Source: a virus. From it: DNA of 20,413 bases. Position 1 is the first letter of the stretch. Each line of letters opens with the position of its first letter. The notes beneath the pieces were generated by a model. That model was not told the origin of the DNA, ran no database searches, and saw only the letters and a program-made list of their open reading frames with translations. The position numbers and the translations under genes are program-made. The stretch lies in the IMG/VR virus record IMGVR_UViG_3300035698_006416, positions 1-20,413 of that record. One strand, given 5' to 3'. This document shows positions 356 to 19,989 of this stretch, one piece after another.

Positions 356-1012
356 ATGGCGACGAACTATACGCAGGCTGGCAAGACCTTGACCACCACG
401 AATGGCAGTGGTGTCGATGTCGTCTCTGGCGGCGTGATCGTCAGTGGCGACGAAATTCGTGTGGCGCTCGTGGACATTGCGAACGCCGCAGCTGGCGAAT
501 GCGCGGCTGAAGGCGTGTTCACGCTGGACGCCACCTCGGCAGACGACTGGTCGGATGGCGACGCGCTGTACTGGGATGCGACCAACGAGAAGCTCACGGA
601 TTCCGCAACCGCCGAGGTCGTGGCCGGTATCGCCATTGGCGACAAGGCCGCCCTCACCCTCACGGCAAACGTGAAGCTCGGCAATCCGGCGGGACCGCGC
701 CAGAAGGACGGCACCGTAGCCGTCGCTGGAGCGGCGCTCGTGATCCCCGTGACGCACGGAACCGTGACGAAGACGACCGGTGGTGCCGAGGCGCTGACCT
801 TGGCCGATGGCAAGCCGGGACAGATTCTCACGGTCTCGATGACCGCAACCGGTGGCGACGGGACTCTGACGCCCGCGACCGCAACCGGTTGGGCTACGTG
901 TGTGTTCATCGCGGCCGGCGACACGCTGTCGCTGCTGTTCGTCGATTCAACGGTCGGTTGGGTGATTCTCGGCACCGCTGGCGTTCTGGCGCCTCCGGTG
1001 ATCTCCGTCTAG
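356..1012 (+). CDS. DUF2190-type capsid decoration protein, copy 1
   Basis: This 218-residue protein begins MATNYTQAGKTLT, the usual opening of DUF2190 phage proteins. It continues with the family's SGGVIVSGDE, GVFTLDA and WSDGDALYWDATNEKLT segments (roughly residues 1-112). DUF2190 proteins sit beside the major capsid gene and are regarded as capsid decoration or cement proteins. The last ~90 residues form a beta-rich extension (KTTGGAEALTLADG, GGDGTLTP, FVDSTVGWVI, ending APPVISV) that reappears in the gene at 6153. A strong ribosome site (AAGGAGAGG) lies just upstream of the ATG. The role is inferred from family and position next to the capsid gene. Confidence 0.82.
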   Translation: MATNYTQAGKTLTTTNGSGVDVVSGGVIVSGDEIRVALVDIANAAAGECAAEGVFTLDATSADDWSDGDALYWDATNEKLTDSATAEVVAGIAIGDKAALTLTANVKLGNPAGPRQKDGTVAVAGAALVIPVTHGTVTKTTGGAEALTLADGKPGQILTVSMTATGGDGTLTPATATGWATCVFIAAGDTLSLLFVDSTVGWVILGTAGVLAPPVISV

Positions 1013-1024
1013 CGTCTGCTCCAC

Positions 1025-1054
1025 GGGGCGGCGGATTCCTCCGTCCGTCGCCCC
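1025..1054 (+). other. Intergenic hairpin after decoration gene 1
   Basis: GGGGCGGCGGA (1025-1035) pairs over 11 bp, with one G-U pair, to TCCGTCGCCCC (1044-1054) around an 8-base loop. No T-tract follows; the ribosome site GGAG of the next gene is at 1068-1071. It is likely a transcript-stability or attenuation element rather than a standard terminator. With the structure at 299-339 it brackets the decoration gene. Confidence 0.5.
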
Positions 1055-1078
1055 GCCCCACCCTCTTGGAGAAATGAC

Positions 1079-1399
1079 ATGCGCCGGCAGGATTACTACC
1101 GAAAAACGATAGTGGTGACGATCGGGACGGCTGACCGGCTCGTTGATGTTGGCGCTGCCTTGCGCGCTGCGTGGAGTGATGGCCGGTTCACGCCCGCGCC
1201 CACCCGGCTCGTGATCGAGACCACAGTGGACTTGACGCTGAAGATCAACGAGACCACGGCAGACGAGATCACAATCACAGCAGCTTCCGGATTTACGCTG
1301 CCGCCGGAAGCCGAGCTTGAGGTTTCACGACTGTACTTCTCGCACACCGGCGCCTCGTCCGGGTCGGGTGACGCCTCAGTCAGCATCTTTGCCGCATAG
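1079..1399 (+). CDS. Small hypothetical virion-region protein
   Basis: I do not recognise this 106-residue protein. It opens with a basic MRRQDYYRK and then appears mostly beta-stranded (alternating hydrophobic and Thr-rich stretches such as TRLVIETTVDLTLKINETT). It ends in a Gly/Ser-rich tail. There is no signal peptide or membrane segment. A GGAG ribosome site is at 1068-1071. It lies between a capsid decoration gene and the glycosyltransferase cassette, and its stop codon lies in the strong AGGAGGG ribosome site of the next gene, so it is co-translated with the virion genes. A minor capsid or fibre-associated role is possible but is only inferred from context. Confidence 0.6.
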   Translation: MRRQDYYRKTIVVTIGTADRLVDVGAALRAAWSDGRFTPAPTRLVIETTVDLTLKINETTADEITITAASGFTLPPEAELEVSRLYFSHTGASSGSGDASVSIFAA

Positions 1400-1411
1400 G
1401 AGGGAAGGCGC

Positions 1412-2590
1412 GTGACTGTCGCGCACGTCAGCCCGTGGGGTGTCCAGTGCGGGATCGCGAAGCACCTGAGTTACTGGATCGCGGAATTGCCGCCCACGCG
1501 GCAGGTCGTGATGTTGGCGGAGACGCCCCCGCCGTGGTATCCGCCGGCAGCCCGATGGCCGGGGCCGCTGATTAATCGCTGCTGGAAACGCTCCGGCGCT
1601 GATGCTCTCCCGGCAATTCAAGCCGCCGCTGAGAAATGCGGCGCGGCAATTCTCCATTTTCAGTGGGACCCATCCTGGTTTCCGTATCGGTCAATGCTGG
1701 CATTTGGCGAGTGGGCGCGCGCGCGAAATGTCAAGATCATCGCAACAATTCACACGCTGGAGGACGTGGATCATTTCGCGTTCCAGAACCAAACCTTCCT
1801 TCGCGTCGTGGATCAGCTTGTCGTCGGCACTCCAGGCATGAAGCGAGCCTGGCGGGAGTACGCCGGACGATTTCATATCCCCATACGCCGGCCAATAGAG
1901 ATCATTCCCTTGCCTGCGCCGCCGCATCCGGTGACATTGCGGGGCCCCGAAGCAACCGATGCGGAGCCGGAGCCGACAGTGCTCACGTGGGGAATGCTTG
2001 GCAAGCTGAAGGGGCATCGCACTGTATTCGAGGCGGTGCAATACCTGCGTGAGACCGGATATCCCAAGCTCCGATATCTGGTCGTCGGAAGTGCGCTGAC
2101 GATGGAACAAAAAGAGCACGTTGCCGACCTGGAGGTCCTCGCGGCGGAAGCTCCTGATGTATTCGAGTTGCGTCTTGGATTCCCGGACGAATCGCAACTG
2201 TACGAATACTGCCGGAAGGCTTCCGTGATCGTGCTTAATCACCAATGGACGCATCAATCATCGAGCGGTACGGTCGCGCTGTCTGTGATGTCGGGCACGC
2301 CGGTTGTAGTCTCGGAGAGTCCGATGTTTTCGGGCTACGTGACTGAGGGGGCAGTTCGTGTCGCGCCGAACGACCCCAAGACTATGGCAGAGATCATCGC
2401 GGATTTACTACGCGCTCCGGATCAGCTTCTCGCGGGACGCGCGCGAATGCTCCAGCGAATCACGCCGGTGTCTGTGGCTGCTGAATACGAGCGGTTATAT
2501 CGGCTGCTGGAAGGGCCGTGCAAAACCGCAAAACCAAACCGGCCCAACAGGGCACAACGGATGGCTGATGCAATTTGGGGATACCGCTGA
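1412..2590 (+). CDS. GT-B glycosyltransferase (GT4-like), first of pair
   Basis: The 392-residue protein has a two-Rossmann-domain glycosyltransferase layout. The N-terminal domain starts VAHVSPWGVQCGIAKHL, a variant of the Gly-rich acceptor loop. The C-terminal domain begins near residue 188 with TVLTWGMLGKLKGH, followed by LRYLVVGSAL and the donor-site segment SSSGTVALSVMSGTPVVVSE (283-302). Such enzymes move a sugar from a nucleotide-sugar to an acceptor. The acidic pair of the canonical EX7E motif is not evident; Ser/Thr occupy that region, as in some GT4 relatives. Start is GTG with an excellent AGGAGGG site at 1398-1404. The next gene, a second glycosyltransferase, starts one base after the stop. 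The acceptor could be a virion protein; that is inference. Confidence 0.8.
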   Translation: MTVAHVSPWGVQCGIAKHLSYWIAELPPTRQVVMLAETPPPWYPPAARWPGPLINRCWKRSGADALPAIQAAAEKCGAAILHFQWDPSWFPYRSMLAFGEWARARNVKIIATIHTLEDVDHFAFQNQTFLRVVDQLVVGTPGMKRAWREYAGRFHIPIRRPIEIIPLPAPPHPVTLRGPEATDAEPEPTVLTWGMLGKLKGHRTVFEAVQYLRETGYPKLRYLVVGSALTMEQKEHVADLEVLAAEAPDVFELRLGFPDESQLYEYCRKASVIVLNHQWTHQSSSGTVALSVMSGTPVVVSESPMFSGYVTEGAVRVAPNDPKTMAEIIADLLRAPDQLLAGRARMLQRITPVSVAAEYERLYRLLEGPCKTAKPNRPNRAQRMADAIWGYR

Positions 2591-2591
2591 G

Positions 2592-3776
2592 ATGAAAATC
2601 CTTGGCATTCACGCGATGGACCACTACGGCGTGGGCGGCGCGTTGCGCGGTCAGGAGATGGGGTTCGCGCTCCGCAAGCTGGGACACGAAATCGTGCAGA
2701 TACCGCCAGGCCACTCTGCGGTTCACATGATCGAGGCCGATTCTCCCGACGCCGTGGTTCTGGCGGGGACGTGGCATCAGCTTATGACCCCTCGCGCCCA
2801 TGCCGCGATCGTGGCCGAAGCCTGCGACAAGGCCCACGTGCCCTGTATTTGGTGGTACGGGTCGAACGGGTCTGTATTCGGCTGTGTCGATCCTTCGCCC
2901 GACGTGCGCGCGCAAACAGAACGCCGAGTGATCCAGGCCATTTGCGATCGTCAATTCATCGCCGTAATCTGCCCGTATTCAATTGGCATCTATGCGCGCC
3001 ATGGTGTGCCGCGCCCGAAAATGCGGCTTGTCCCGAGCGTATTCGATGGCGACCTTTTCTGTCCCGCGTCGAGCACCTATGATGCGCGTGTCTCTGAGCG
3101 GATGCGGTACAAGTTTGGAATTCCGGACGGCGCGTTCTGCCTTGGCACCGTGGGCCATACGCCAAACAGCAAAGGCGGCGATGAAATCATTCAGGCCGTG
3201 GCCCTCCTGAAAAACGAGATGCCGGACCTACATTACCTGGTTTTGCACAGCCCGGAAAACACGTTGAGCAAAGTCAAGGCCACGAGTCCGGATAAGAAGG
3301 TCATTGGCAACAGCGAATGGGACGTACTCCAAAAAACCAAGGTCCTTGCGCGTACGCTTGGCGTCCAGGATCGCGTGCGGTTCCTTGGGATGAGATTTCC
3401 GCGCATTGCAATGCCGACGTTCTATCGGCTGTGTGACGTCTACTGTTCGCCGTCCAAGGCTGAAAACTTGGGGCAGCCGTTGGTCGAGTCGCAACTCTGC
3501 GGGTTGCCGCTGCTGACGTTCAAGGGCTTCAGTTTCGATTTTGTCGCCTGCCCGACAAGCGCCGTGCAGATCGAGCCCACACATACGGTAACGGATAACT
3601 ACGGATTGGTGATCCCCGAGGTGAGTGGCGAGGTCGTTGCCGAGGGCATCCGCCAAGCACGCGCGCTAGGGGGGGATGCGGAGATCGCCAAAGCAACGCG
3701 CGCGTGGGCTTACGAGAAGTTCCACCACCACAATGCACAGGTGATGGTGGACGCCATCGAGGAATACCGTGGCTGA
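2592..3776 (+). CDS. GT-B glycosyltransferase (GT4 family), second of pair
   Basis: This 394-residue protein shows the retaining GT4 pattern. It has an N-terminal fold starting MKILGIHAMDHYGVGGALRG, a C-domain from about residue 183 (LGTVGHTPNSKGGDEIIQA), and the donor-site motif SKAENLGQPLVESQLCGLP with the two glutamates of EX7E at 291 and 299. It should transfer a sugar from a nucleotide donor. I chose ATG 2592, one base after the previous stop, because the Rossmann strand MKILGIH starts there. The frame is open further upstream (to ATG 2568 and a GTG at 2358), but that stretch overlaps the previous gene and does not resemble the family. The stop overlaps the next start by 8 bases. Confidence 0.83.
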   Translation: MKILGIHAMDHYGVGGALRGQEMGFALRKLGHEIVQIPPGHSAVHMIEADSPDAVVLAGTWHQLMTPRAHAAIVAEACDKAHVPCIWWYGSNGSVFGCVDPSPDVRAQTERRVIQAICDRQFIAVICPYSIGIYARHGVPRPKMRLVPSVFDGDLFCPASSTYDARVSERMRYKFGIPDGAFCLGTVGHTPNSKGGDEIIQAVALLKNEMPDLHYLVLHSPENTLSKVKATSPDKKVIGNSEWDVLQKTKVLARTLGVQDRVRFLGMRFPRIAMPTFYRLCDVYCSPSKAENLGQPLVESQLCGLPLLTFKGFSFDFVACPTSAVQIEPTHTVTDNYGLVIPEVSGEVVAEGIRQARALGGDAEIAKATRAWAYEKFHHHNAQVMVDAIEEYRG

Positions 3777-5322
3777 CAAGAACGCACAAGCTGATGGCGA
3801 CTGGGCATCCGCAGCAACGTGGGCCGAGGGGGCGGTTCCACAGACGGGCGAGACGGTCTCAATCTCTGGCTGGATTGTAGACCTCACGACGACCAGCAAC
3901 GCCGTGGGAACTGTCACGCTTGCCGGTGTGGGGGAGTTGTACATACACTCCGGAGGGAAGCTGCGACTCGCGGGGCAGGTCATCGCCGCGACTGGAACGA
4001 CGTTCCGCATGGACGGTGGTGGCGAAGTCGCCATCGTCTGCACTGCAAACAATCAAGCCAGTCGGCAGCTTACGATCAGCGGAAACTTCATAGTTGCAAA
4101 CGCGGGCCTTGGGAACATGGCGAAGATTTACGGCGAGGACGGCACGAAGCGACCCTATACTGCTGTGTATCTTAATCTGGCAACTGTGTCGACCATCGCC
4201 GTTGATGGCCTCGAAATTTTTGACGCAGCTACCATTGCCCTCCGAATCTTGAATGGCCCGTTCATCGGCAGCCTTCGGAATATACTCATTCGCGATATCC
4301 AGTATTATGGCATCCGAGCGGATGGCATTGGCACGCTAATTATGCAAGACGTATGCATGTACTCGTGTGTGTATGGGGTGTACCTTTCGTCCGGCACGAC
4401 CATGGTCTGCCAAAATGTCCTGCTCGGAAAAGACCTTGCCGGGGCGGCTCACCCGAATACCGGAGGAGACGTTCGGGTGCAAAATGGATGCACGCTCAGC
4501 ATCGTGAATGGCGTGCTAGCATCGGGGACGCAGTTCTATACTTCGATCGGTCACCAGGAACGCGGCCCTCTGGCGTTCGTCCGCAACATCGGCTATGTGC
4601 CGACGGATGGAATACTCACGGGCGAGGGGACGCCCGGCACAAACAAGATCGCTCGATGGGAAGGGGTCATTGACGATCAGGTGATTACGCCGACATCGGG
4701 CGCGGCGTCATGGCCGCTGTGCTGCAATGGCTGGCGGTTCGGGCTCGCGCCGATTCCGTTCGAGGCGCGTATCCCCGCGAGTGGCGACGATACGATCAGC
4801 ATGGAGGTCGTGGTCGAGCCGAACGCCTCACAGCCGGCCGATTCTGTCGTGCTTAAACTCGATCCCGACAACATCTACGGTGCGCAGGATGATAGCGTGC
4901 AGGCGGTGCCTGCGGGCGTCGAAACCACGCTCACGGCCTCGGGCACCGTCCTTGCGGCGCATGGGCACGTAGCGGTGCCCTGGCGCATCGAGGTCAACGA
5001 CTACGGCGCGGGCGGTACTGTCGAGATCAAGTCCGTGATCGTTACGGTTGGAGCTGCCGAACCGCTGACGCTAGACTTCGCGCGGTGGTCATTCGCGCGC
5101 CCCGACTGGCCCGCCGTTGCGGATGTCGAGGACGGCGTGACGTATCAGGATGGCGCCAAGGCCGGAACCGTAGAACTGCCGGTCGAGACGGACGTGAGGG
5201 AATCCATTCAGTACGGCGCCGGGGGTACGGAGTACACGGGGACGCTGCACGTGCAACGGCCGATCGGCGAAGTCGTGCTCGATGTCCGGGGCAGGCTCGG
5301 CCTGGAGGTGCGAGATGGCTGA
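3769..5322 (+). CDS. Beta-helix fibre or spike-like protein
   Basis: The protein has 517 residues. The N-terminal part (WASAATWAEGAVPQTGETVS then VGELYIHSGGKLRLAG) and the middle (IRDIQYYGIRADGIGTLIMQ, VYGVYLSSGTTMVCQNVLL) have the short hydrophobic-strand and turn periodicity of right-handed parallel beta-helices, common in phage spikes and carbohydrate-binding proteins. The C-terminal third looks like beta-sandwich plus an ending typical of virion accessory proteins (VTYQDGAKAGTVELP, YGAGGTEYTGTLHV). No catalytic residues are recognised. The start is GTG with GAGG at 3759-3762, overlapping the glycosyltransferase stop. It is sandwiched between sugar-transfer enzymes and a baseplate-like gene, so it is a candidate surface fibre and possibly the glycosylated product. 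The function is inferred from fold appearance. Confidence 0.6.
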   Translation: MADKNAQADGDWASAATWAEGAVPQTGETVSISGWIVDLTTTSNAVGTVTLAGVGELYIHSGGKLRLAGQVIAATGTTFRMDGGGEVAIVCTANNQASRQLTISGNFIVANAGLGNMAKIYGEDGTKRPYTAVYLNLATVSTIAVDGLEIFDAATIALRILNGPFIGSLRNILIRDIQYYGIRADGIGTLIMQDVCMYSCVYGVYLSSGTTMVCQNVLLGKDLAGAAHPNTGGDVRVQNGCTLSIVNGVLASGTQFYTSIGHQERGPLAFVRNIGYVPTDGILTGEGTPGTNKIARWEGVIDDQVITPTSGAASWPLCCNGWRFGLAPIPFEARIPASGDDTISMEVVVEPNASQPADSVVLKLDPDNIYGAQDDSVQAVPAGVETTLTASGTVLAAHGHVAVPWRIEVNDYGAGGTVEIKSVIVTVGAAEPLTLDFARWSFARPDWPAVADVEDGVTYQDGAKAGTVELPVETDVRESIQYGAGGTEYTGTLHVQRPIGEVVLDVRGRLGLEVRDG

Positions 5323-5638
5323 TTTTTACATCAAGACTGACGACACGCGCCCCTACCTTGGCGCGCGGATCAAGCAAGATGCGGCAGCGGTAAGCCTCTC
5401 CGGGGCAACGGTAGCTTTCACGATGGCGACAACTGCCGGTGTCGTGAAGGTAAACCGGCAAGCATGTGTCGTCACGGATGCCACCGCCGGCGAGTGCGAA
5501 TACCGCTGGGCTGCCGGGGACACGGACACGGCCGGCGAGTACAATGCCGAGCTTGAGATTACGTTCGCCGACGGCAAGGTGATGACCGCTCCGGCGAATG
5601 GTTATATCCGGCTGACGGTGGTCGAGGACTTGGCATGA
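5315..5638 (+). CDS. BppU N-terminal domain-like baseplate/fibre protein
   Basis: This 107-residue protein reads like the N-terminal domain of phage baseplate upper protein BppU (DUF2479-like). It has MADFYIKTDDTRPYLGARI, then VSLSGATVAFTM, then YRWAAGDTDTAGEYNAELEI and ITFADGKV with a short NGYIRLTVVED ending. In characterised phages this domain attaches receptor-binding proteins to the baseplate; here it stands alone. I chose ATG 5315 over an in-frame upstream GTG at 5282 because GGAGGTG (5304-5310) is ideally spaced and the family match starts at MADF. The first bases overlap the beta-helix gene, and the stop overlaps the methyltransferase start (ATGA). Together these suggest a small fibre module. 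Confidence 0.72.
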   Translation: MADFYIKTDDTRPYLGARIKQDAAAVSLSGATVAFTMATTAGVVKVNRQACVVTDATAGECEYRWAAGDTDTAGEYNAELEITFADGKVMTAPANGYIRLTVVEDLA

Positions 5639-6150
5639 ATGAGATGATCGTCGGTTACGAGGCTGCGGCAGATCGAATTGAAGCGGAAATCGGCAAGCCG
5701 ATGGGCAACGTACTCGATATCGGGTGCAATTCGGGCGATGGCATGATGGCGTTGGCGGCGCGGTGGCCGAATACTACGGTGATGGGGATCGAGCCTGACG
5801 ACACCCTGGGGCGTCTTGCGCGGGATAAGGGCTTGGCCGTATGGTGCGCGAGTGCTGAGGACATATCGGTCGGCGATGGCGCAATTGACCTCGTGTTCTC
5901 GCGGCACTCGCTAGAGCACGTTCCGGATCGGAACTTGGCGGTTCAGGAGTTGTGGCGAGTTCTGCGACTAGGAGGACACCTGTACATTCAGGCGCCCATA
6001 GAGCCCGGCGGGTCGCCGAATGCCCTGCACGTATCGCCATTCCTGTCATGCGACGAGTTGCGAGGTCGTTGCATGTCCCTTTTGGGCTCCCGCGAGATTT
6101 ACTGGGGCCCCCAGGCGACCGTCGCTGAAATCATCATCAAGAAGGAGTAG
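5635..6150 (+). CDS. Class I SAM-dependent methyltransferase (Methyltransf_11-like)
   Basis: The 171-residue protein carries the Rossmann methyltransferase motifs. Motif I is NVLDIGCNSGDG (25-36), the acidic ribose-binding residue is in GIEPDD (51-56), and the central IDLVFSRHSLEHVPD (84-98) is followed by RVLRLGGHLYIQAP (108-121). It should move a methyl group from S-adenosylmethionine to a small molecule, sugar or protein; there is no DNA-methylase catalytic motif such as DPPY. It is shorter than typical members and has only a brief C-terminal cap. The ATG overlaps the previous stop in ATGA. Its place after two glycosyltransferases suggests it modifies the same glycan or the same virion protein, which is inference. 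Confidence 0.82.
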   Translation: MNEMIVGYEAAADRIEAEIGKPMGNVLDIGCNSGDGMMALAARWPNTTVMGIEPDDTLGRLARDKGLAVWCASAEDISVGDGAIDLVFSRHSLEHVPDRNLAVQELWRVLRLGGHLYIQAPIEPGGSPNALHVSPFLSCDELRGRCMSLLGSREIYWGPQATVAEIIIKKE

Positions 6151-6152
6151 TC

Positions 6153-6875
6153 ATGCTGTCCAATTACCAGGGCGACGGCGCGGTACTCGACACGCTGAAC
6201 GACACCGGCGGCGATCATGCCGACGGTGACATGATCGTCGTCGGCGATACGGTCCGCGTGTGTATTGGCGCGATCGTGAACAACGCGACCGGTTCGGCGT
6301 ATTCTCAGGGTGTATTCCAGTTGAGCGCGACCGCCGCCGATTCGTGGACGGACGGAGCGGTACTCTACTGGGATTCCGCAACCGCGAAGTTGACGGACAC
6401 CGCGAGCACGAACACCCTTGCCGGATATGCCGTGGACGCGAAGGTAGTCAATAGCCTGACGGCGAAGGTCAAGTTCGATCCGGGGGCCATCAGCACCGGG
6501 CGTGTCGGCACGACCGCGTTGGCAGTGGACAGCGTGACCGAGACAGAACTGGAAGCCTACACCTCGGGCTCTGTGGCTGTGATTGCCGACGAGTTGCCGA
6601 TCCCGATTACGCACAGATTTGCGTCGAAAACCACGGGAGCTGATGCCGAAGCCCTGACGCTGGCCGATGGCACGCCCTGTCAAAAGGTGACAATCAGCCT
6701 CGTCGTTGACGGCGGCGGCGACGGGACCCTTACCCCGACGACATGTACAGGTTTTGCGACTATCGTATTCGCCGACGCGGGCGATACGGCCGAACTGGAG
6801 TTTGTCGACGCGGCAACCGGTTGGGTTATCGGCGCTCTCTTCGGCGTTGCCGCGCCTCCGGCGATCACGATCTAG
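6153..6875 (+). CDS. DUF2190-type capsid decoration protein, copy 2
   Basis: This 240-residue protein is a paralog of the gene at 356. They share VFQLSATAADSWTDGAVLYW against VFTLDATSADDWSDGDALYW, a repeated KLTDTAS-type strand, and a closely matching C-terminal domain (KTTGADAEALTLADG, GGDGTLTP, FVDAATGWVI, APPAITI). The N-terminus lacks the standard MATNYxQxGK opening, and an additional ~20-residue segment separates the two halves (around TETELEAYTSG). A second decoration or cement protein is the likely role. AAGGAG (6142-6147) precedes the ATG. It resumes the virion gene order after the glycosyltransferase cassette, so the two copies flank that cassette. Confidence 0.78.
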   Translation: MLSNYQGDGAVLDTLNDTGGDHADGDMIVVGDTVRVCIGAIVNNATGSAYSQGVFQLSATAADSWTDGAVLYWDSATAKLTDTASTNTLAGYAVDAKVVNSLTAKVKFDPGAISTGRVGTTALAVDSVTETELEAYTSGSVAVIADELPIPITHRFASKTTGADAEALTLADGTPCQKVTISLVVDGGGDGTLTPTTCTGFATIVFADAGDTAELEFVDAATGWVIGALFGVAAPPAITI

Positions 6876-6887
6876 GGTGTGCGCGAA

Positions 6888-7091
6888 ATGGCAACCTTCA
6901 GTCCCGAACAACAGGCGTTCATTCGCCAGATCGTCACCGAGGTTGTGCCGATCATCATTGAGCAGCACGTCGAGAGCTGCCCATGGGGGCGTCAGGTCCG
7001 GCGGGTGTTCTGGCTTGGCATTGGCATCGGCATCGGCGCGGGCGCCCTCGGGCTCCCCGCCGTGGCACGTCTGTTGGGGGTGTTGGTATGA
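6888..7091 (+). CDS. Small single-pass membrane protein in head-tail region
   Basis: This 67-residue protein has a soluble N-terminal helix (FSPEQQAFIRQIVTEVVPII), a short HVESCPWGRQVRR segment, and one C-terminal hydrophobic Gly-rich span (VFWLGIGIGIGAGALGLP, about residues 40-57). Membrane proteins of this shape recur in phage head-tail regions, but I know no assigned function. A holin-like role is possible but the position argues against it. ATG 6888 is preferred because AGGGTG (6874-6879) is well spaced for it; an in-frame GTG at 6879 would overlap that site. Its stop overlaps the next start (ATGA). Confidence 0.6.
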   Translation: MATFSPEQQAFIRQIVTEVVPIIIEQHVESCPWGRQVRRVFWLGIGIGIGAGALGLPAVARLLGVLV

Positions 7092-7417
7092 TTGACTGGG
7101 CGACCATGAGCGGCGCGTTGAAATCCGCGCTCGGGGAATCGGTCACGTACACGCCTCGTGTGGGGGCGGCTCGAACGCTGACTGCGATTGTGGACCGGCA
7201 CGCGGCAGAGATCATAACCGAAGAGCCTCGTGCGCTTCGGCCGCGAATCGAGGTATGGGTTGACAACGACGCGACGACTGGCATCTCGGCAACTGAACTC
7301 GACACAGGCGGGGATACGCTAGGCTTTGCGTTCCGTGAAGGCGGGGACGCCAAGACGTTCACGGTTGCCAAGCTGCTCGACCACGACAACGGGATGTTGC
7401 ACCTGGAGTGCCGATAG
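7088..7417 (+). CDS. Head-tail joining protein candidate (gpFII-like position)
   Basis: The 109-residue protein (MIDWATMSGALKSALGESVTYTP at its start) has the size and position of small head-tail joining or connector proteins such as lambda gpFII. It comes just before a gpZ-like, a gpU-like and a tail-tube gene. Sequence gives only a beta-rich pattern (IEVWVDNDATT, DTLGFAFREGGDAKTFTVAK). The ATG lies in an ATGA overlap with the preceding small membrane protein and follows GGGGGTG. An in-frame upstream GTG at 6983 would lie wholly inside that gene and is rejected. The assignment comes mostly from gene order. Confidence 0.55.
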   Translation: MIDWATMSGALKSALGESVTYTPRVGAARTLTAIVDRHAAEIITEEPRALRPRIEVWVDNDATTGISATELDTGGDTLGFAFREGGDAKTFTVAKLLDHDNGMLHLECR

Positions 7418-11929: not shown

Positions 11930-12766
11930 ATGCCTCTCGTGAATATTCAAGAAAGATGGAGCAACGTTAACGTCCACATCGGGCAGGTGGACGGAATCGC
12001 GAACACGGAATACGGGTCGGCCCGAAGCTGGACCGTGCTCATGGAGCCTCCGAATGAGGGCGCCATGTATGCGATCGTAGCGGCGGGGTTGCCTGTCATC
12101 GGCGATGCACACCCGGATGCCACAGACCAAAAGGCATTGCGCAAGACCTGCGTACCGCTCGGGCCGCTGCTGTACGAGGTGAACGTAGACTATGCCGGTA
12201 AGACAAGCCCACTGTACGAACCATACGAGCGCCGTTGGGGGGCTTCGGCCTCGACTGAGGACATAGATCAAGACGCCGACGGTGATCCGATCCGAACGCC
12301 GACGAAAGAGCCGTTCGTAGGGATGAAAAAAGAGATCCTTGATCCGGTGTACATAGTGACGCGCAATGAGTTGGCGTTCCCGACGACGACCGCGTTGGCA
12401 TTTCGGAACCGGCTGAACTCGGATGTGTTCTTGGGGCAGGATGCTGGCAAGGCCAAGATGGGCGCGATTACCGGGAATCGAGTGGTTGACGGGGCGGCGT
12501 ACTATTGGCAGGTGACGTATCCGATAGCATTCCGCGATGACGGATGGGCGCGCCGGACGTTGTGTGAGGGGAAGCGGCACTGGACAGGCAAGCTCTTGGC
12601 AAGCGGTGAGAAGCAGATCATCCCTATCGTTGTGGGCGGCGTCCCCGTGTCCAAGCCGATGCGACTGGACGCGACCGGGAAGCTGCTGGCCGAGAGCGAT
12701 GCGGACGTATGGCTAGAGTTCGACATTTACGAGTCGACGGCGTTCGCGCCGTTGGCGTTGGTATGA
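11930..12766 (+). CDS. Distal-tail-region protein, unknown family
   Basis: The 278-residue protein has WTVLMEPPNEGAMYAIVAAG near the N-terminus and a distinctive middle: PVYIVTRNELAFP, FRNRLNSDVFLGQDAGKAKM, YYWQVTYPIAFRDDGWAR. The spacing of these blocks matches a family I recall from planctomycetal phage-like loci, but I cannot name a function. It is beta-rich overall and soluble. GAGGTG (11920-11925) overlaps the tape measure stop and is well placed for the ATG at 11930. Position right after the tape measure is where distal tail or baseplate hub proteins occur, so a tail-tip protein is the best inference. Confidence 0.6.
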   Translation: MPLVNIQERWSNVNVHIGQVDGIANTEYGSARSWTVLMEPPNEGAMYAIVAAGLPVIGDAHPDATDQKALRKTCVPLGPLLYEVNVDYAGKTSPLYEPYERRWGASASTEDIDQDADGDPIRTPTKEPFVGMKKEILDPVYIVTRNELAFPTTTALAFRNRLNSDVFLGQDAGKAKMGAITGNRVVDGAAYYWQVTYPIAFRDDGWARRTLCEGKRHWTGKLLASGEKQIIPIVVGGVPVSKPMRLDATGKLLAESDADVWLEFDIYESTAFAPLALV

Positions 12767-12776
12767 TCGGCGCACC

Positions 12777-13364
12777 ATGAGCAGCGCCCTACACGGCTTC
12801 TCTGCCGACGACGTGAAGCGCATAGGGGATGCGGTTGCCCGCGTCGAGGGCGCCCCACGCCGTGTGGCAAGTGATGCCGACGTGACTGACAATCGCTGGA
12901 CCGATGCGCGTGCCGCCTCGAATGTCAGTGGCGAAGTCGTTCCACAATACGGCCTGCTGTGGAACACGGATTCGGACGTGGACGGCGTGATGGAAGTGGA
13001 TCGGATTGAGTATCCCGGCGTCAGCGCGTTGGCAATCGCCGCCGACGAAATTCCGGTTGATGGCGACGGCATGGCGTGGATTGAGGGGCGGCACACCGTG
13101 CTCGTCAACGCGGCGGATCATGCCGGAATTTCCGTAGGCGACGACCTCGGGCCACAGCAGGACTCGTTCGCGGCGATCCCCCAGGAGGGGGGCAGCCTGC
13201 TGGTCGTGGGGCTTGGCGACTCGCCTTACGTGGACGTTGAGATGCGAGGCCGCCGATGCGACACGGCTATGATCGCCGGCCGCAACTGCGAGGTCCTCGT
13301 GATCGATCCGGCCGTGTTTAAGTTTGCCGTCGCCTCGGATGATGGAACGGTGTACCTGGAATGA
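12777..13364 (+). CDS. Hypothetical distal tail/virion protein
   Basis: This 195-residue protein is not recognised by function. An N-terminal helix (ADDVKRIGDAVARVEG) and the segment NVSGEVVPQYGLLWN lead into strands (WIEGRHTVLVNAADHAGISV, VVGLGDSPYVDVEM). The phrase SGEVVPQYGLLW is echoed by NQSGSTRSQYSVLS in the next gene, suggesting related beta-sandwich modules. The ATG has only a weak ribosome site. The stop overlaps the next ATG (ATGA). It lies in the distal tail block and is probably a virion component. Confidence 0.5.
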   Translation: MSSALHGFSADDVKRIGDAVARVEGAPRRVASDADVTDNRWTDARAASNVSGEVVPQYGLLWNTDSDVDGVMEVDRIEYPGVSALAIAADEIPVDGDGMAWIEGRHTVLVNAADHAGISVGDDLGPQQDSFAAIPQEGGSLLVVGLGDSPYVDVEMRGRRCDTAMIAGRNCEVLVIDPAVFKFAVASDDGTVYLE

Positions 13365-14122
13365 GTCAGTTGTTAATCGTCGCCGAAGTCACGGGAGCGG
13401 CAGGGGTGTGGAAAGCGTACCCCGCGAGCCGTGTGCGATGGCCTGCGGGCTATGAGGTGGTGCCCCGCGACGGGCACGCCGAGGTCCGGGCTGGCATCGG
13501 CGAACGATGGCTGCTGCGGCCAGACACCGTGGATTTTACCGGGTTCACGATTACGGACCTCAGCAACCGAATCTCCAAGATGACAGCCAAACCGGCAGCC
13601 GCCGCCGCGCTTGGCGCAATCCCCCCGGTGCCGGGGCCCCAGGTGCTCGTGCGCAATCAGAGCGGCAGCACGCGAAGCCAGTACAGCGTGCTGAGCATCA
13701 GTAGCGTGAGTATCATTGATACGCGAGCGGTGCTGAACCTGATTACGCCTCCGGCTGTGATTGCGGATCGGGCTGCGTTTGTCGTGCTCGCGGAACCGCT
13801 TGCCAACACCGCCGTGGGTTGGGCATGGGTCCGAGGGCTGTGTGTCTGCAAAGTGAATATCCACGACACGGGGCACACCCGCGCCGGGCCGATCGGGGGG
13901 CTCGTGACGCACCTGCAATCGCTCGGCACGGGGACTGCGCAGATACTCTGGGCCGAAGCCGGGACCGGGATCAAGTGGTGCTTGCTTGATCTTGATTCCC
14001 TTGTCGGGTTCCCGACGATCTACAAGGCCACGGCCGATGCGGCAGCGGGCGCGATTACCGCGAAGTGGATAGACGACGCGGGTGCCGTGACGGGGACGAC
14101 AGAGACGTTTAAGGTGTACTGA
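13361..14122 (+). CDS. Hypothetical virion protein, beta-rich
   Basis: The 253-residue protein has an N-terminal stretch (LIVAEVTGAAGVWKAYPASR), a proline spacer (IPPVPGPQ), then VLVRNQSGSTRSQYSVLSI, FVVLAEPLANTAVGWAWVRG and TAQILWAEAGTGIKWCLLDL. This run of blocks is familiar to me from planctomycetal phage-like loci, where no function is assigned. No membrane segment or catalytic motif is visible. Its ATG overlaps the previous stop by 4 bases. It comes just before the Kelch-like propeller gene, so an adaptor or fibre-base role is plausible; that is inference. Confidence 0.55.
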   Translation: MSQLLIVAEVTGAAGVWKAYPASRVRWPAGYEVVPRDGHAEVRAGIGERWLLRPDTVDFTGFTITDLSNRISKMTAKPAAAAALGAIPPVPGPQVLVRNQSGSTRSQYSVLSISSVSIIDTRAVLNLITPPAVIADRAAFVVLAEPLANTAVGWAWVRGLCVCKVNIHDTGHTRAGPIGGLVTHLQSLGTGTAQILWAEAGTGIKWCLLDLDSLVGFPTIYKATADAAAGAITAKWIDDAGAVTGTTETFKVY

Positions 14123-14140: not shown

Positions 14141-15274
14141 ATGGACAGCGGCGATCTCCTCATCCCGATGATGAATGCCGATGGGAATATGGCGGCGTTC
14201 GAGGTGTCGTCGCCCACGAAATCCGGCGAGTTTTTCATCCCCCTGGAAAACGCGGACGGGACGCTCTGTGCGGCTCAGGTGCGGCCGGCCGAAAAGCAGG
14301 ACGAGTATTGTATCTGGGCGCAGACGGCTGACGGGGGGCTGGCGCTTTTCAGGAGTGCGGTGTCTGACAACGTGTTCGCGTGGTTTGTTGGGGGGAGCGG
14401 GGTAGCGGGAAGACAAACTCGCATTGACGGTCTTGATTTGACTAACGAAAGCGCTAGCGTGGTAGATAGAGCGGATTTGCCTGTTGCGCGTGCCGGAATG
14501 AGCACGATGCAGAATGCGCTGTTTGCATGGTTTGGCGGTGGATTCTCGACAGGGTATGAAGATCGTGTGGACCGCATGGAGTTTGCCGACGACACGACAA
14601 ACGCAATCTTTAGATGCGATCTCTCTCTGGCACGAAACTCCGTGAAAGGCGTGTCGGCGTCTCTTTTTGGGTATACCCTTGGCGGCGACCTTGCCGGTGG
14701 CGAGCCCATGACAGACCGAGTAGATAGAATTGAGTTTGCGGATGACACCACAAATGCACTCGACAGGTGCAACATGGTGCAGGAGGCGTTTTCGTACACG
14801 GCGCGAGAAACACCAGAATATGGATATGCAATGGGGGGATATACATACACGGGATACACAAATCTGAAAAACATCAGCCGCTTGGTATTTGCAAACGATA
14901 CGACTGATATGCTTGACAGGGCGGAGTTGCCCGTCGCGGTTCGCGGGGCAACATCTGTAAAAACATTTGATTCATCGTTCATCTACTCTTGCGGTGGAAG
15001 GACGGGAGCGTATGTCAAAGACTGCAATCGGTATGATACGGCTTCGGATACCGTAAATGCGGTGCATAAGCTGGACACCACCCTTCCTGCCGGCGCAACC
15101 ATGGGAGGCGTTTACAACTCAACGTATGGTTGGCTTGCGGGCGGGTGGGTAAGTTATTTCACGGGTCGTGTGCTCCGAATGACTTTCGCAGACGACACGA
15201 CGGATTTTGTGGACAGGCATCCGACTGTCTTGACTATCGCTCGAAGTGATCTTGCTGCGGCTTGTGCTCCATAA
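14141..15274 (+). CDS. Kelch-like beta-propeller, likely receptor-binding fibre tip
   Basis: The protein has 377 residues. The N-terminus has three repeats spaced exactly 25 residues: LLIPMMNADGNMAAF (6), FFIPLENADGTLCAA (31) and YCIWAQTADGGLALF (56). The rest is six Kelch-type blades, each with a GG doublet (about residues 84, 132, 181, 232, 285, 334) followed by R(V/I)DRxEFADDTTNA and a closing LPVAR-like strand. Six blades fit a complete propeller. Phage Kelch-like proteins of this kind occur in tail fibres and are thought to bind receptors. The region 14400-15250 looks more AT-rich than its flanks, consistent with separate acquisition. GGGGA precedes the ATG. Confidence 0.72.
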   Translation: MDSGDLLIPMMNADGNMAAFEVSSPTKSGEFFIPLENADGTLCAAQVRPAEKQDEYCIWAQTADGGLALFRSAVSDNVFAWFVGGSGVAGRQTRIDGLDLTNESASVVDRADLPVARAGMSTMQNALFAWFGGGFSTGYEDRVDRMEFADDTTNAIFRCDLSLARNSVKGVSASLFGYTLGGDLAGGEPMTDRVDRIEFADDTTNALDRCNMVQEAFSYTARETPEYGYAMGGYTYTGYTNLKNISRLVFANDTTDMLDRAELPVAVRGATSVKTFDSSFIYSCGGRTGAYVKDCNRYDTASDTVNAVHKLDTTLPAGATMGGVYNSTYGWLAGGWVSYFTGRVLRMTFADDTTDFVDRHPTVLTIARSDLAAACAP

Positions 15275-17507: not shown

Positions 17508-17641
17508 TCTCAAACCGGGCTGGGGTGATGGACAACAAGACCAACGGACACAACCGACAGGCAAATCGGGTCGCTCGCGGCGAGGCTCCCCCCAGCCCAC
17601 CCGCTGCGGGCGGCCCGGTTGCTTTGGAGGCCACCCCATGA
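17504..17641 (+). CDS. 45-residue small protein coupled at both ends
   Basis: This short ORF starts in an ATGA with the MerR-like gene stop and ends in an ATGA with the nuclease gene start. AAGGAG (17490-17495) is 8 bases before its ATG. The product begins MISNRAGVMDNKTNGHNRQA and then is proline/alanine-rich (EAPPSPPAAGG). It looks disordered and has no membrane segment. I do not recognise it. The coupling and ribosome site are strong evidence it is translated; it may be a phage regulatory or accessory peptide. Confidence 0.6.
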   Translation: MISNRAGVMDNKTNGHNRQANRVARGEAPPSPPAAGGPVALEATP

Positions 17642-18678
17642 CTGAAAACCTCACACACAGCGCCATGAGCGCGGCACGGCGATGCCTCATGTCATACCAC
17701 TACCGATATGAACTTGGCCTGGTCCGGGACGCCGAGGCCAAGGCGCTCCGCATGAGCAGCGCTGTCCACGCGGGGCTTGCGGCGTGGAGCCGTGGCTCGT
17801 GCGATTACGTCACGGTGGCCACTGCCGATTATGCCACGCTGCCGATATGGGCCGATCCCGACGACTGGGCAATCGAATGCGAGGTCGTCACGGCGCTGCT
17901 GGCGGGCTACTCGGCGTACTACCGCGACGATCCGATCGTATACCGCAGCGTCGAGGATAAGTTCACCGTGCCGCTTATCAACCCGGACACTGACCACCCG
18001 AGCCGCACGTTTCATCTGGCCGGACGGCGCGACGGGATCGTGGAATGGGAAGGCCGGCTGATGGTGCTCGAACGCAAGACGTGTGGCGAGGACATCAGCC
18101 CGGCGTCGGATTACTGGTTGAGGCTGCGGATTGACCCTCAGATCAGCCTGTATGCGCTTGCCGCCCGGCTGGAAGGCCACGACGTGGCCGGCGTGATGTA
18201 TGATGTAATTCGCAAGCCGACGATCAAGCCTCGCCAGGTGCCGTCGCTTGATGAGGACGGCTTGAAGATTGTGCTCGACAAGGACACTGGCGCGCGCGTG
18301 TTCAAGAAGGACGGCAAGCCACGGCAGTCTGGCGGGGGCGAAATGCTGTTGCTTTCGCGCACGGAATCCCCCGACGAATACGGCACGCGGCTGGCCGAGG
18401 ACATCAAGAGCCGCCCGGACCACTACTTCGCGCGGCGTGAAATCCCCCTGCTTGACGATCAACTCGAAACGTTCCGACACGAAATATGGCATCAGGCAAA
18501 GCTGCTCATGGAATGCCGCAACCGTGGGCTGTGGTTCAGGTCGGTTGGCCGTACCACCTGCGGATTCTGCGATTACGCGGATATCTGCTTGCAGAGCCGA
18601 TCCGTCGAAGATGGCGAGGTGCCGTCCGGGTACAGTCGTTTGGAAAACGTGCATCCTGAACTGGAGGATCAGAAATGA
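17638..18678 (+). CDS. PD-(D/E)XK nuclease, Cas4/RecB-like with Fe-S cysteines
   Basis: The 346-residue protein has the RecB-type nuclease pattern. It has an N-terminal cysteine (C16 in AARRCLMSYHYRYE), an active-site histidine (H44), D132 in GRRDGIVEW, E145 and K147 in VLERKT, the QxxxY motif (Q168, Y172), and a C-terminal C308-x2-C311-x5-C317 set. One N-terminal cysteine with three at the C-terminus is the 4Fe-4S arrangement of Cas4, AddB and phage exonucleases. It should be a DNA exonuclease for recombination or end processing. No cas1, cas2 or repeat array is near, so a CRISPR role is unlikely. GGAGG precedes the ATG, and the ends overlap neighbours. Confidence 0.85.
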   Translation: MTENLTHSAMSAARRCLMSYHYRYELGLVRDAEAKALRMSSAVHAGLAAWSRGSCDYVTVATADYATLPIWADPDDWAIECEVVTALLAGYSAYYRDDPIVYRSVEDKFTVPLINPDTDHPSRTFHLAGRRDGIVEWEGRLMVLERKTCGEDISPASDYWLRLRIDPQISLYALAARLEGHDVAGVMYDVIRKPTIKPRQVPSLDEDGLKIVLDKDTGARVFKKDGKPRQSGGGEMLLLSRTESPDEYGTRLAEDIKSRPDHYFARREIPLLDDQLETFRHEIWHQAKLLMECRNRGLWFRSVGRTTCGFCDYADICLQSRSVEDGEVPSGYSRLENVHPELEDQK

Positions 18679-18995: not shown

Positions 18996-19207
18996 CGGAC
19001 CGCATATCGGATTGCGAGTTGGAGACGCGGGCGAAGCTGGACGCGAAGCCGGAGCACGCTTGCGAAGGATGCCGGAAGCGGGACGCGAAGATCGCCATAG
19101 TGTTCGACATCCTTGCCGAATCAACATCGATGTTGAAGGCCATGAATGCGTATGTACGGCTCCTCGAAGCCCAGATCGCAGACCTGAAAGGAAAGACCAC
19201 CCCATGA
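18992..19207 (+). CDS. Small hypothetical protein with CxxC
   Basis: This 71-residue protein has an N-terminal part with a CEGC pair (HACEGCRKRD) and a C-terminal helix likely to form a coiled coil (ILAESTSMLKAMNAYVRLLE). No family is recognised. It is translationally coupled on both sides by ATGA junctions, with the repeat protein before and the ATPase after. With one CxxC plus another cysteine it may bind metal, but this is uncertain. Confidence 0.55.
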   Translation: MTDRISDCELETRAKLDAKPEHACEGCRKRDAKIAIVFDILAESTSMLKAMNAYVRLLEAQIADLKGKTTP

Positions 19208-19989
19208 GCCCCCCCCCGAAACGGCAGACCGCACCTGGCGGCGCAACCTTCGAGACCGCACCCCGCGCAACGGCCCAACGAATCGGCATCTACGGCCCCG
19301 GCGGCATTGGGAAAACGAGTCTCGCGGCTGCGGCACCGGGCCCGGTCGTGTTTTTCGACTTGGACGACTCCCTTGGAATCCTCGGCCTGAAGGTTCAGCG
19401 CGTTTCAGGCACGCCCGACTTGGCCGACATGCGGCGCGTGCTGCAAGGCCCCGAATGGGACGACATCAAGACCATCGTGATTGACAGCGCGACGCGAGCC
19501 GAAGAACTTGCCGTGGACTGGACGTGCGCGAACGTGCGCACCGAAAAGGGCAAAACCGTGTCCCGGATCGAGGGCTACGGATACGGCCAGGGCTATACCC
19601 ACGTGTACGATACGTTTATGACGCTTGTCGGCGACCTTGACGCGCATATCCGCGCCGGACGCAACGTGATCCTCGTCATGCACGACTGTACCGCAAATGT
19701 CCCGAACCCCCACGGTGAAGATTACATTCGGTACGAGCCTCGCTTGCAGTCGCCGAAATCAGGCAAGGCGTCTATTCGCCTGCGCATACGGGAATGGCTC
19801 GACCACCTCATGTTCGTCGGGTATGATGTCGCCGTGGACAAAGGCAAAGGCCAGGGCTCTGGCACCCGCACGATCTACCCAGTGGAAACGCCGGCGTGTA
19901 TGGCGAAGAGCCGGTTGCTTGACGAGCCGATCCCGTTCGCACGCGACAGTGCGGAACTGTGGGATCGGTTGTTTGTTGATTCTGACTGA
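19204..19989 (+). CDS. RecA-fold AAA ATPase, Sak4-like (AAA_24 type)
   Basis: The 261-residue protein has Walker A GPGGIGKT (31-38) in QRIGIYGPGGIGKTSLAAAA, an early acidic strand VVFFDLDDSL, Walker B TIVIDSATRAEE (90-101), and a third strand NVILVMHD (154-161). This is the phage nucleotide-binding AAA_24 layout, including Sak4-type RecA-core recombinases that act in single-strand annealing. A nearby nuclease supports a recombination role, but some AAA_24 proteins have no tested function. Start is the ATG in the ATGA overlap; a longer in-frame extension to 18865 lies inside the earlier genes and is rejected. Confidence 0.8.
   Translation: MSPPPKRQTAPGGATFETAPRATAQRIGIYGPGGIGKTSLAAAAPGPVVFFDLDDSLGILGLKVQRVSGTPDLADMRRVLQGPEWDDIKTIVIDSATRAEELAVDWTCANVRTEKGKTVSRIEGYGYGQGYTHVYDTFMTLVGDLDAHIRAGRNVILVMHDCTANVPNPHGEDYIRYEPRLQSPKSGKASIRLRIREWLDHLMFVGYDVAVDKGKGQGSGTRTIYPVETPACMAKSRLLDEPIPFARDSAELWDRLFVDSD

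Follow-up and report, generated by a model that had tools for sequence, protein, structure and literature searches.

Gene organization of the locus

The window analyzed here, i.e., the entire 20,413-base virus record, starts inside the 3′ end of a Phage_capsid_4 capsid gene, which is followed by a decoration gene (DEC1), a short ORF (p2), two glycosyltransferase genes (GT1 and GT2), a 517-aa ORF, an ORF with a BppU_N domain, a methyltransferase gene (MT), a second decoration gene (DEC2), a 67-aa ORF and a connector-like gene (Table 1). Beyond this last gene, the same strand continues with the genes for a Minor_tail_Z/neck protein, a tail terminator and a tail tube protein. Every gene lies on the same strand, with intergenic gaps from −8 to +66 nt, and the GC3 of the cassette resembles that of its neighbours—the composition bears no sign of recent import. 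A preliminary description of this DNA had placed two glycosyltransferases, a BppU-like protein and a methyltransferase between two DUF2190-type genes with a shared C-terminal domain. Profile searches bear out this content, with two PF00534 matches, BppU_N and Methyltransf_11 for the enclosed genes, and both PF09956 and phrog_122 for the flanking ones. The 106-aa p2 ORF was absent from the earlier gene list, and it proved to be the constant partner of both glycosyltransferase genes. The true start of GT2 is the one given in Table 1 and not that of the longer ORF. The 517-aa ORF, a putative beta-helix protein according to that description, gave zero matches in Pfam, PHROGs, NCBIfam, PDB or phage records to back this label.

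Elsewhere in the window, the gene for a Kelch-like repeat protein contains 36-nt DNA repeats and has a GC3 of 0.58, compared to about 0.7 around it. At the right end, an exonuclease and an annealing protein make up a recombination pair.

Table 1. Predicted genes of the window, with their positions and supporting matches.
Feature	Position	Strand	Support
Major capsid/protease protein (Phage_capsid_4), C-terminal end, cut by the contig end	1..274	+	PF25209, E 7.5e-10; phrog_4523, 1e-22
DEC1, DUF2190/Phage_cement_2 decoration protein, extended by a C-terminal domain	356..1012	+	PF09956, 4e-17
p2, 106 aa, predicted single jelly roll; constant GT1 partner and candidate acceptor	1079..1399	+	Present in 6/6 cassettes, 8-15 nt before GT1
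GT1, GT4-type GT-B glycosyltransferase, altered EX7E	1412..2590	+	PF00534, 1.6e-13
GT2, GT4-type glycosyltransferase, EX7E intact	2592..3776	+	PF00534, 4e-14; MshA match, E 1e-7
517-aa ORF, between GT2 and MT in the window only	3769..5322	+	Absent from L004, L012, L010 and L015
Single BppU_N (Ig-like) domain protein, inserted along with the 517-aa ORF	5315..5638	+	PF10651, 4e-7; phrog_1627, 8e-7
MT, class I SAM-dependent methyltransferase	5635..6150	+	PF08241 (Methyltransf_11), 4e-17
DEC2, second DUF2190 decoration paralogue	6153..6875	+	PF09956, 3e-15; 45% to DEC1
67-aa ORF, common only to the window and L012	6888..7091	+	61% to L012
Head-tail connector-like protein, right boundary of the insertion	7088..7417	+	46-54% in L012 and L004
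Kelch-like repeat protein	14141..15274		PF24681 (weak); phrog_19111, 1e-28
PD-(D/E)XK exonuclease	17638..18678		PF12705
Sak4-like annealing protein	19201..19989		AAA_24

Related loci with and without the cassette

Two loci, L004 and L012, have the whole head module in common with the window at 40-74% protein identity (73-74% for the end of the capsid protein). Both display the order capsid-DEC-p2-GT1-GT2-MT-(putative second methyltransferase)-connector, with one DEC each. GT2 and MT are fused in frame in these relatives (L004:3927-5741, 604 aa; L012:4711-6465, 584 aa), whereas in the window they are split by two structural-type genes, i.e., the 517-aa/BppU pair. The gene after MT in L004 and L012, which was tentatively assigned to the FkbM family by an N-x-E-G-S/T-E motif only, retrieved nothing from Pfam, PHROGs or NCBIfam; in the window, its slot is occupied by DEC2. 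A cassette-less site was found in L017, where capsid, DEC and connector follow each other with no genes between, and where DEC consists of the N-terminal domain only. Some 50 other loci have a related tail tube; their capsid-connector interval measures roughly 0.8 kb and gave no p2, GT1 or GT2 hit. Taken together, the comparison of L004 and L012 with L017 and the cassette-free loci argues that the sugar genes entered the interval that separates one decoration gene from the connector.

The history put forward in the preliminary description is contradicted by L004, L012 and L010. The idea that the sugar genes were inserted between the copies of a duplicated decoration gene draws on the homology of DEC1 and DEC2 and on their position on either side of the cassette; we nonetheless give it very little credence as the founding event, since the cargo is accompanied by a single DEC in L004 and L012 and by no detectable DUF2190 gene in L010, L014 and L015, and since DEC2 is no nearer to DEC1 (45% identity) than to the DEC proteins of L004 (50%) and L012 (52%).

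The paralogy of the two decoration genes is itself supported, as they align end to end (45% identity, E 5e-57), with about 21 more residues in the linker of DEC2, and this divergence excludes an assembly duplicate. PF09956 (62.9 bits for DEC1 and 56.9 bits for DEC2, against a Pfam gathering cut-off of 24 bits) and phrog_122 (head decoration) match the N-terminal 108 residues of both proteins, which differ from other DUF2190/Phage_cement_2 decoration proteins in their additional C-terminal domain. DEC1 lies directly 3′ of the capsid gene and has orthologues at the same position in L004 (71%) and L012 (67%); DEC2 is located 5.9 kb downstream, and two full-length copies occur in the window alone among the loci of the set. 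These identities suggest that DEC2 split off earlier, was acquired from another phage or evolved fast. A recent duplication of DEC1 into DEC2 within this lineage is disfavoured, though not rejected, on phylogenetic grounds: constraining the two to form a group carries a cost of 10.5 log units (AU p = 0.07) in a decoration tree that is unresolved. Most likely, this lineage alone gained DEC2 and the 517-aa/BppU pair at a later stage, and the bracketing of the cassette by two decoration genes is incidental.

The C-terminal domain shared by DEC1 and DEC2 comprises about 100 residues, has no Pfam entry and is, judging from where its sequence occurs, a mobile virion module. It stands alone after capsid genes at L005:5898-6263 and L009:1133-1498, and forms the end of 700-800-aa fibre-like proteins at L006:7123-9306 and L007:6901-9276. 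In an otherwise unrelated phage contig, two adjoining DUF2190 hits (L091:7199-8021) possibly represent a tandem decoration pair.

Conservation and mobility of the p2-GT1-GT2-MT unit

The association of p2 with the glycosyltransferases was found at six loci in all (the window, L004, L012, L010, L014 and L015), with p2, GT1 and GT2 in the same order and with tight or overlapping ends. The distance from the p2 stop to GT1 is 8-15 nt in every case, and GT1 and GT2 either overlap by 4-14 nt or are separated by a 1-nt gap—except in L015, where a 258-aa ORF lies between them. MT comes after GT2, directly or as a fusion, in all four of the other loci whose contig reaches that point (L004, L012, L010 and L015). 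Among about 170 loci compared, p2 is confined to these six, three of which (L010, L014 and L015) came in through glycosyltransferase queries. A pattern scan derived from a four-row p2 alignment returned GT-linked, already known loci only and missed L010 and L014, which indicates a low sensitivity; the six-row alignment was too diverse for a scan of this kind.

The head genes of the carriers are of several types: Phage_capsid_4 plus DUF2190 in the window, L004 and L012, GP7 plus a Bbp16-like protein in L010, an HK97-type head in L014 (whose contig ends inside GT2) and an unassigned capsid in L015. While p2 and GT1 of the window are nearest to those of L012 (56% and 60% identity, respectively), its GT2, which shares 48-66% identity with the copies in the other loci, is nearer to that of L010 (66%), with another capsid, than to those of L004 and L012 (60-61%), with the same capsid, suggesting that the genes move across capsid types. 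Moreover, the distances of p2, GT1 and GT2 correlate weakly (r 0.27-0.54), which points to reshuffling within the cassette instead of strict co-inheritance. These sequence comparisons indicate horizontal transfer of the cassette with some reshuffling, and the recurrence of the gene set beside quite different heads suggests that it is probably a portable kit for placing sugars on the virus particle.

Two of the carriers encode additional proteins next to the unit. Directly after the L015 cassette (12606-13688) lies a glutamyl-tRNA-synthetase/GluQRS-like catalytic domain (TIGR03838, 3e-6; PF00749, E 1e-3, below the cut-off), and the protein might attach an amino acid to something. In L014, the product of the gene just upstream of p2 (2592-3806; 404 aa) has weak matches, methyltransferase in its N-terminal and GT2-like in its C-terminal part, and is possibly a further enzyme of that cassette.

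Searches across 84,980 bacterial and archaeal genomes gave no relatives of GT1 or GT2, and a plasmid search gave no match. Among about 50,000 phage records searched by tblastn, there was no match to GT1, p2 or DEC1; GT2 and MT had weak partial matches only, and DEC2 weak DUF2190 matches only. On the basis of the phage-record results, the kit appears to be unknown among cultured phages. Scans of viral contigs, which relied on short exact peptide patterns and hence yield counts that are lower bounds, returned no relatives of DEC2 or of the 517-aa ORF.

Predicted features of the glycosyltransferases and of p2

The AF2 model of GT1 (pLDDT 84) adopts a GT-B fold, with GlgM, MshA and SPS (sucrose-phosphate synthase) as Foldseek matches at E about 1e-14 and with the pseudo-glycosyltransferase VldE also among the structural matches. 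At the EX7E position, GT1 reads (Q/E/H)SSSGTV(A/V)L in all six loci, with Q, E or H at the position of the first Glu and always Leu at that of the second. GT2, by comparison, keeps ENLGQP(L/F)(V/I)E in the five loci that reach the motif (E291...E299 in the window). The intact motif of GT2, set against the altered one of GT1, makes GT2 the likelier catalyst; GT1 could have an altered donor site or a helper role, or could be inactive. Both resemble GT4 enzymes of the MshA/PimA/BshA type in their GT4 Pfam domain, with a GT-B fold predicted for GT1 and EX7E kept in GT2, but their identity to these enzymes is low (9-20%), and most copies of GT1 lack both motif glutamates.

For p2, an AF2 model built from six rows (pLDDT 76.6) predicts a small jelly roll. 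Its top PDB matches by Foldseek and VIA-align are the penton proteins VP9 of HCIV-1 and SH1 (E 1e-3; Z 8.1 and 7.7), at scores that unrelated rows reach too; cupins and other jelly rolls follow close behind, so only the fold class is supported. Although the predicted fold aligns best with single jelly-roll vertex (penton) proteins—VP9 of HCIV-1/SH1 and P31 of PRD1/PR772—identities are 14-17% at middling Z, and these viruses are non-tailed. By sequence, p2 matched no characterised virion protein. An N-x-T sequon in p2 was set aside as a candidate modification site, with the invariant Asn lying in a sequon in just five of the six copies. To our knowledge, GT4 enzymes do not act as sequon glycosyltransferases.

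Proposed function of the cassette

Corndog-type mycobacteriophages carry an O-methyltransferase, two glycosyltransferases and an N-acetylglucosaminyltransferase between portal and protease (PMC4351075), and capsid and tail tube are the reported targets of the GT/O-methyltransferase sets in such phages (PMC11600133, PMC12363180, PMC12619734). The cassette of one of them, Idergollasper (ON260829), is alike in joining several glycosyltransferases and a methyltransferase, as overlapping genes, within a structural operon. It differs in its insertion site, in the absence of p2 and in its enzymes, which comprise a TylF methyltransferase and weak GT2- and GT25-like matches, as opposed to the GT4 GT-B enzymes and Methyltransf_11 of the window. 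Profile searches for enzyme homology to Idergollasper genes 33-36 gave negative scores only. The different enzyme families and the lack of profile similarity speak for a functional parallel and not for membership, and, by analogy, the cassette of the window most likely works like the Corndog GT/O-methyltransferase cassette without being homologous to it.

In the best reading of the locus, the enzymes would modify virion proteins encoded next to them. Among these, we favour p2 as the acceptor, since no other non-enzyme accompanies the enzymes across carriers with different capsid and decoration families, and it is a better candidate than the DUF2190 proteins. The opposite assignment, in which the major capsid, tail tube or DUF2190 proteins are the substrates of the glycosyltransferases and MT in Corndog fashion while p2 is a virion protein travelling along, would agree with the known capsid and tail tube targets in mycobacteriophages (PMC11600133, PMC12619734) and with the predicted surface proteins DEC1 and DEC2 adjoining the cassette. 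We hold it to be unlikely, though not far-fetched: the acceptor of a conserved enzyme pair would have to be conserved as well, and it is p2 that stays constant among carriers whose capsid and decoration families differ.

Targets outside the virion proteins fit the locus less well. GT4 enzymes commonly build host glycans, methyltransferase/glycosyltransferase pairs are found in polysaccharide loci and the PHROG match phrog_2170 is classed among morons, all of which could suit enzymes that block superinfection by remodelling the O-antigen, capsule or teichoic acid of the host surface; yet the genes sit within a late head operon between capsid and connector and are linked to p2, and the annotated hits include no flippase or polymerase, which renders this role improbable. 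Virus-encoded DNA glycosyltransferases exist as well (cited in PMC12619734), but a glycosylation of modified DNA bases as an anti-restriction hypermodification is very improbable here, given the linkage of the cassette to head genes and p2, and given that the annotated hits of the 20 kb, which are part of the genome, include no base-modifying or nucleotide-metabolism gene beyond the exonuclease and the annealing protein.

With slightly better than even confidence, we thus interpret the region as a portable virion-glycosylation cassette carried by an uncultured tailed phage, with p2 as the most plausible acceptor. Its conserved unit, p2-GT1-GT2-MT, lies downstream of the decoration gene and upstream of the head-tail connector gene. 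Late transcription would yield the four proteins together with the capsid. As a predicted small jelly-roll capsid accessory protein, p2 would be part of the virion, and GT2 and GT1 would assemble a short glycan (one or two sugars) on one of the virion proteins, with p2 as the most plausible one. GT1, with its GT4 fold and changed donor motif, might add the second sugar, have another specificity or serve as a helper subunit, and MT would then act on the product by methylating the sugar or the protein.

Virion glycosylation of mycobacteriophages affects antibody recognition. All phage virion glycosylation that we know of acts on proteins that the phage already possesses. It is conceivable, and we put this forward tentatively, that the unit constitutes a self-contained, horizontally moving capsid-glycosylation kit that brings its own acceptor, the jelly-roll accessory protein p2, along with a dedicated GT4 pair and a methyltransferase, such that any tailed phage, regardless of its capsid family, could take up the set in one piece and bear a methylated glycan on its head. 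If true, the retention of these enzymes with one small partner protein beside unrelated capsids would mean that phages can pick up glycosylation in modular form, and the cassette would offer a compact four-gene system for joint tests of a protein-glycosylation pair and its acceptor.
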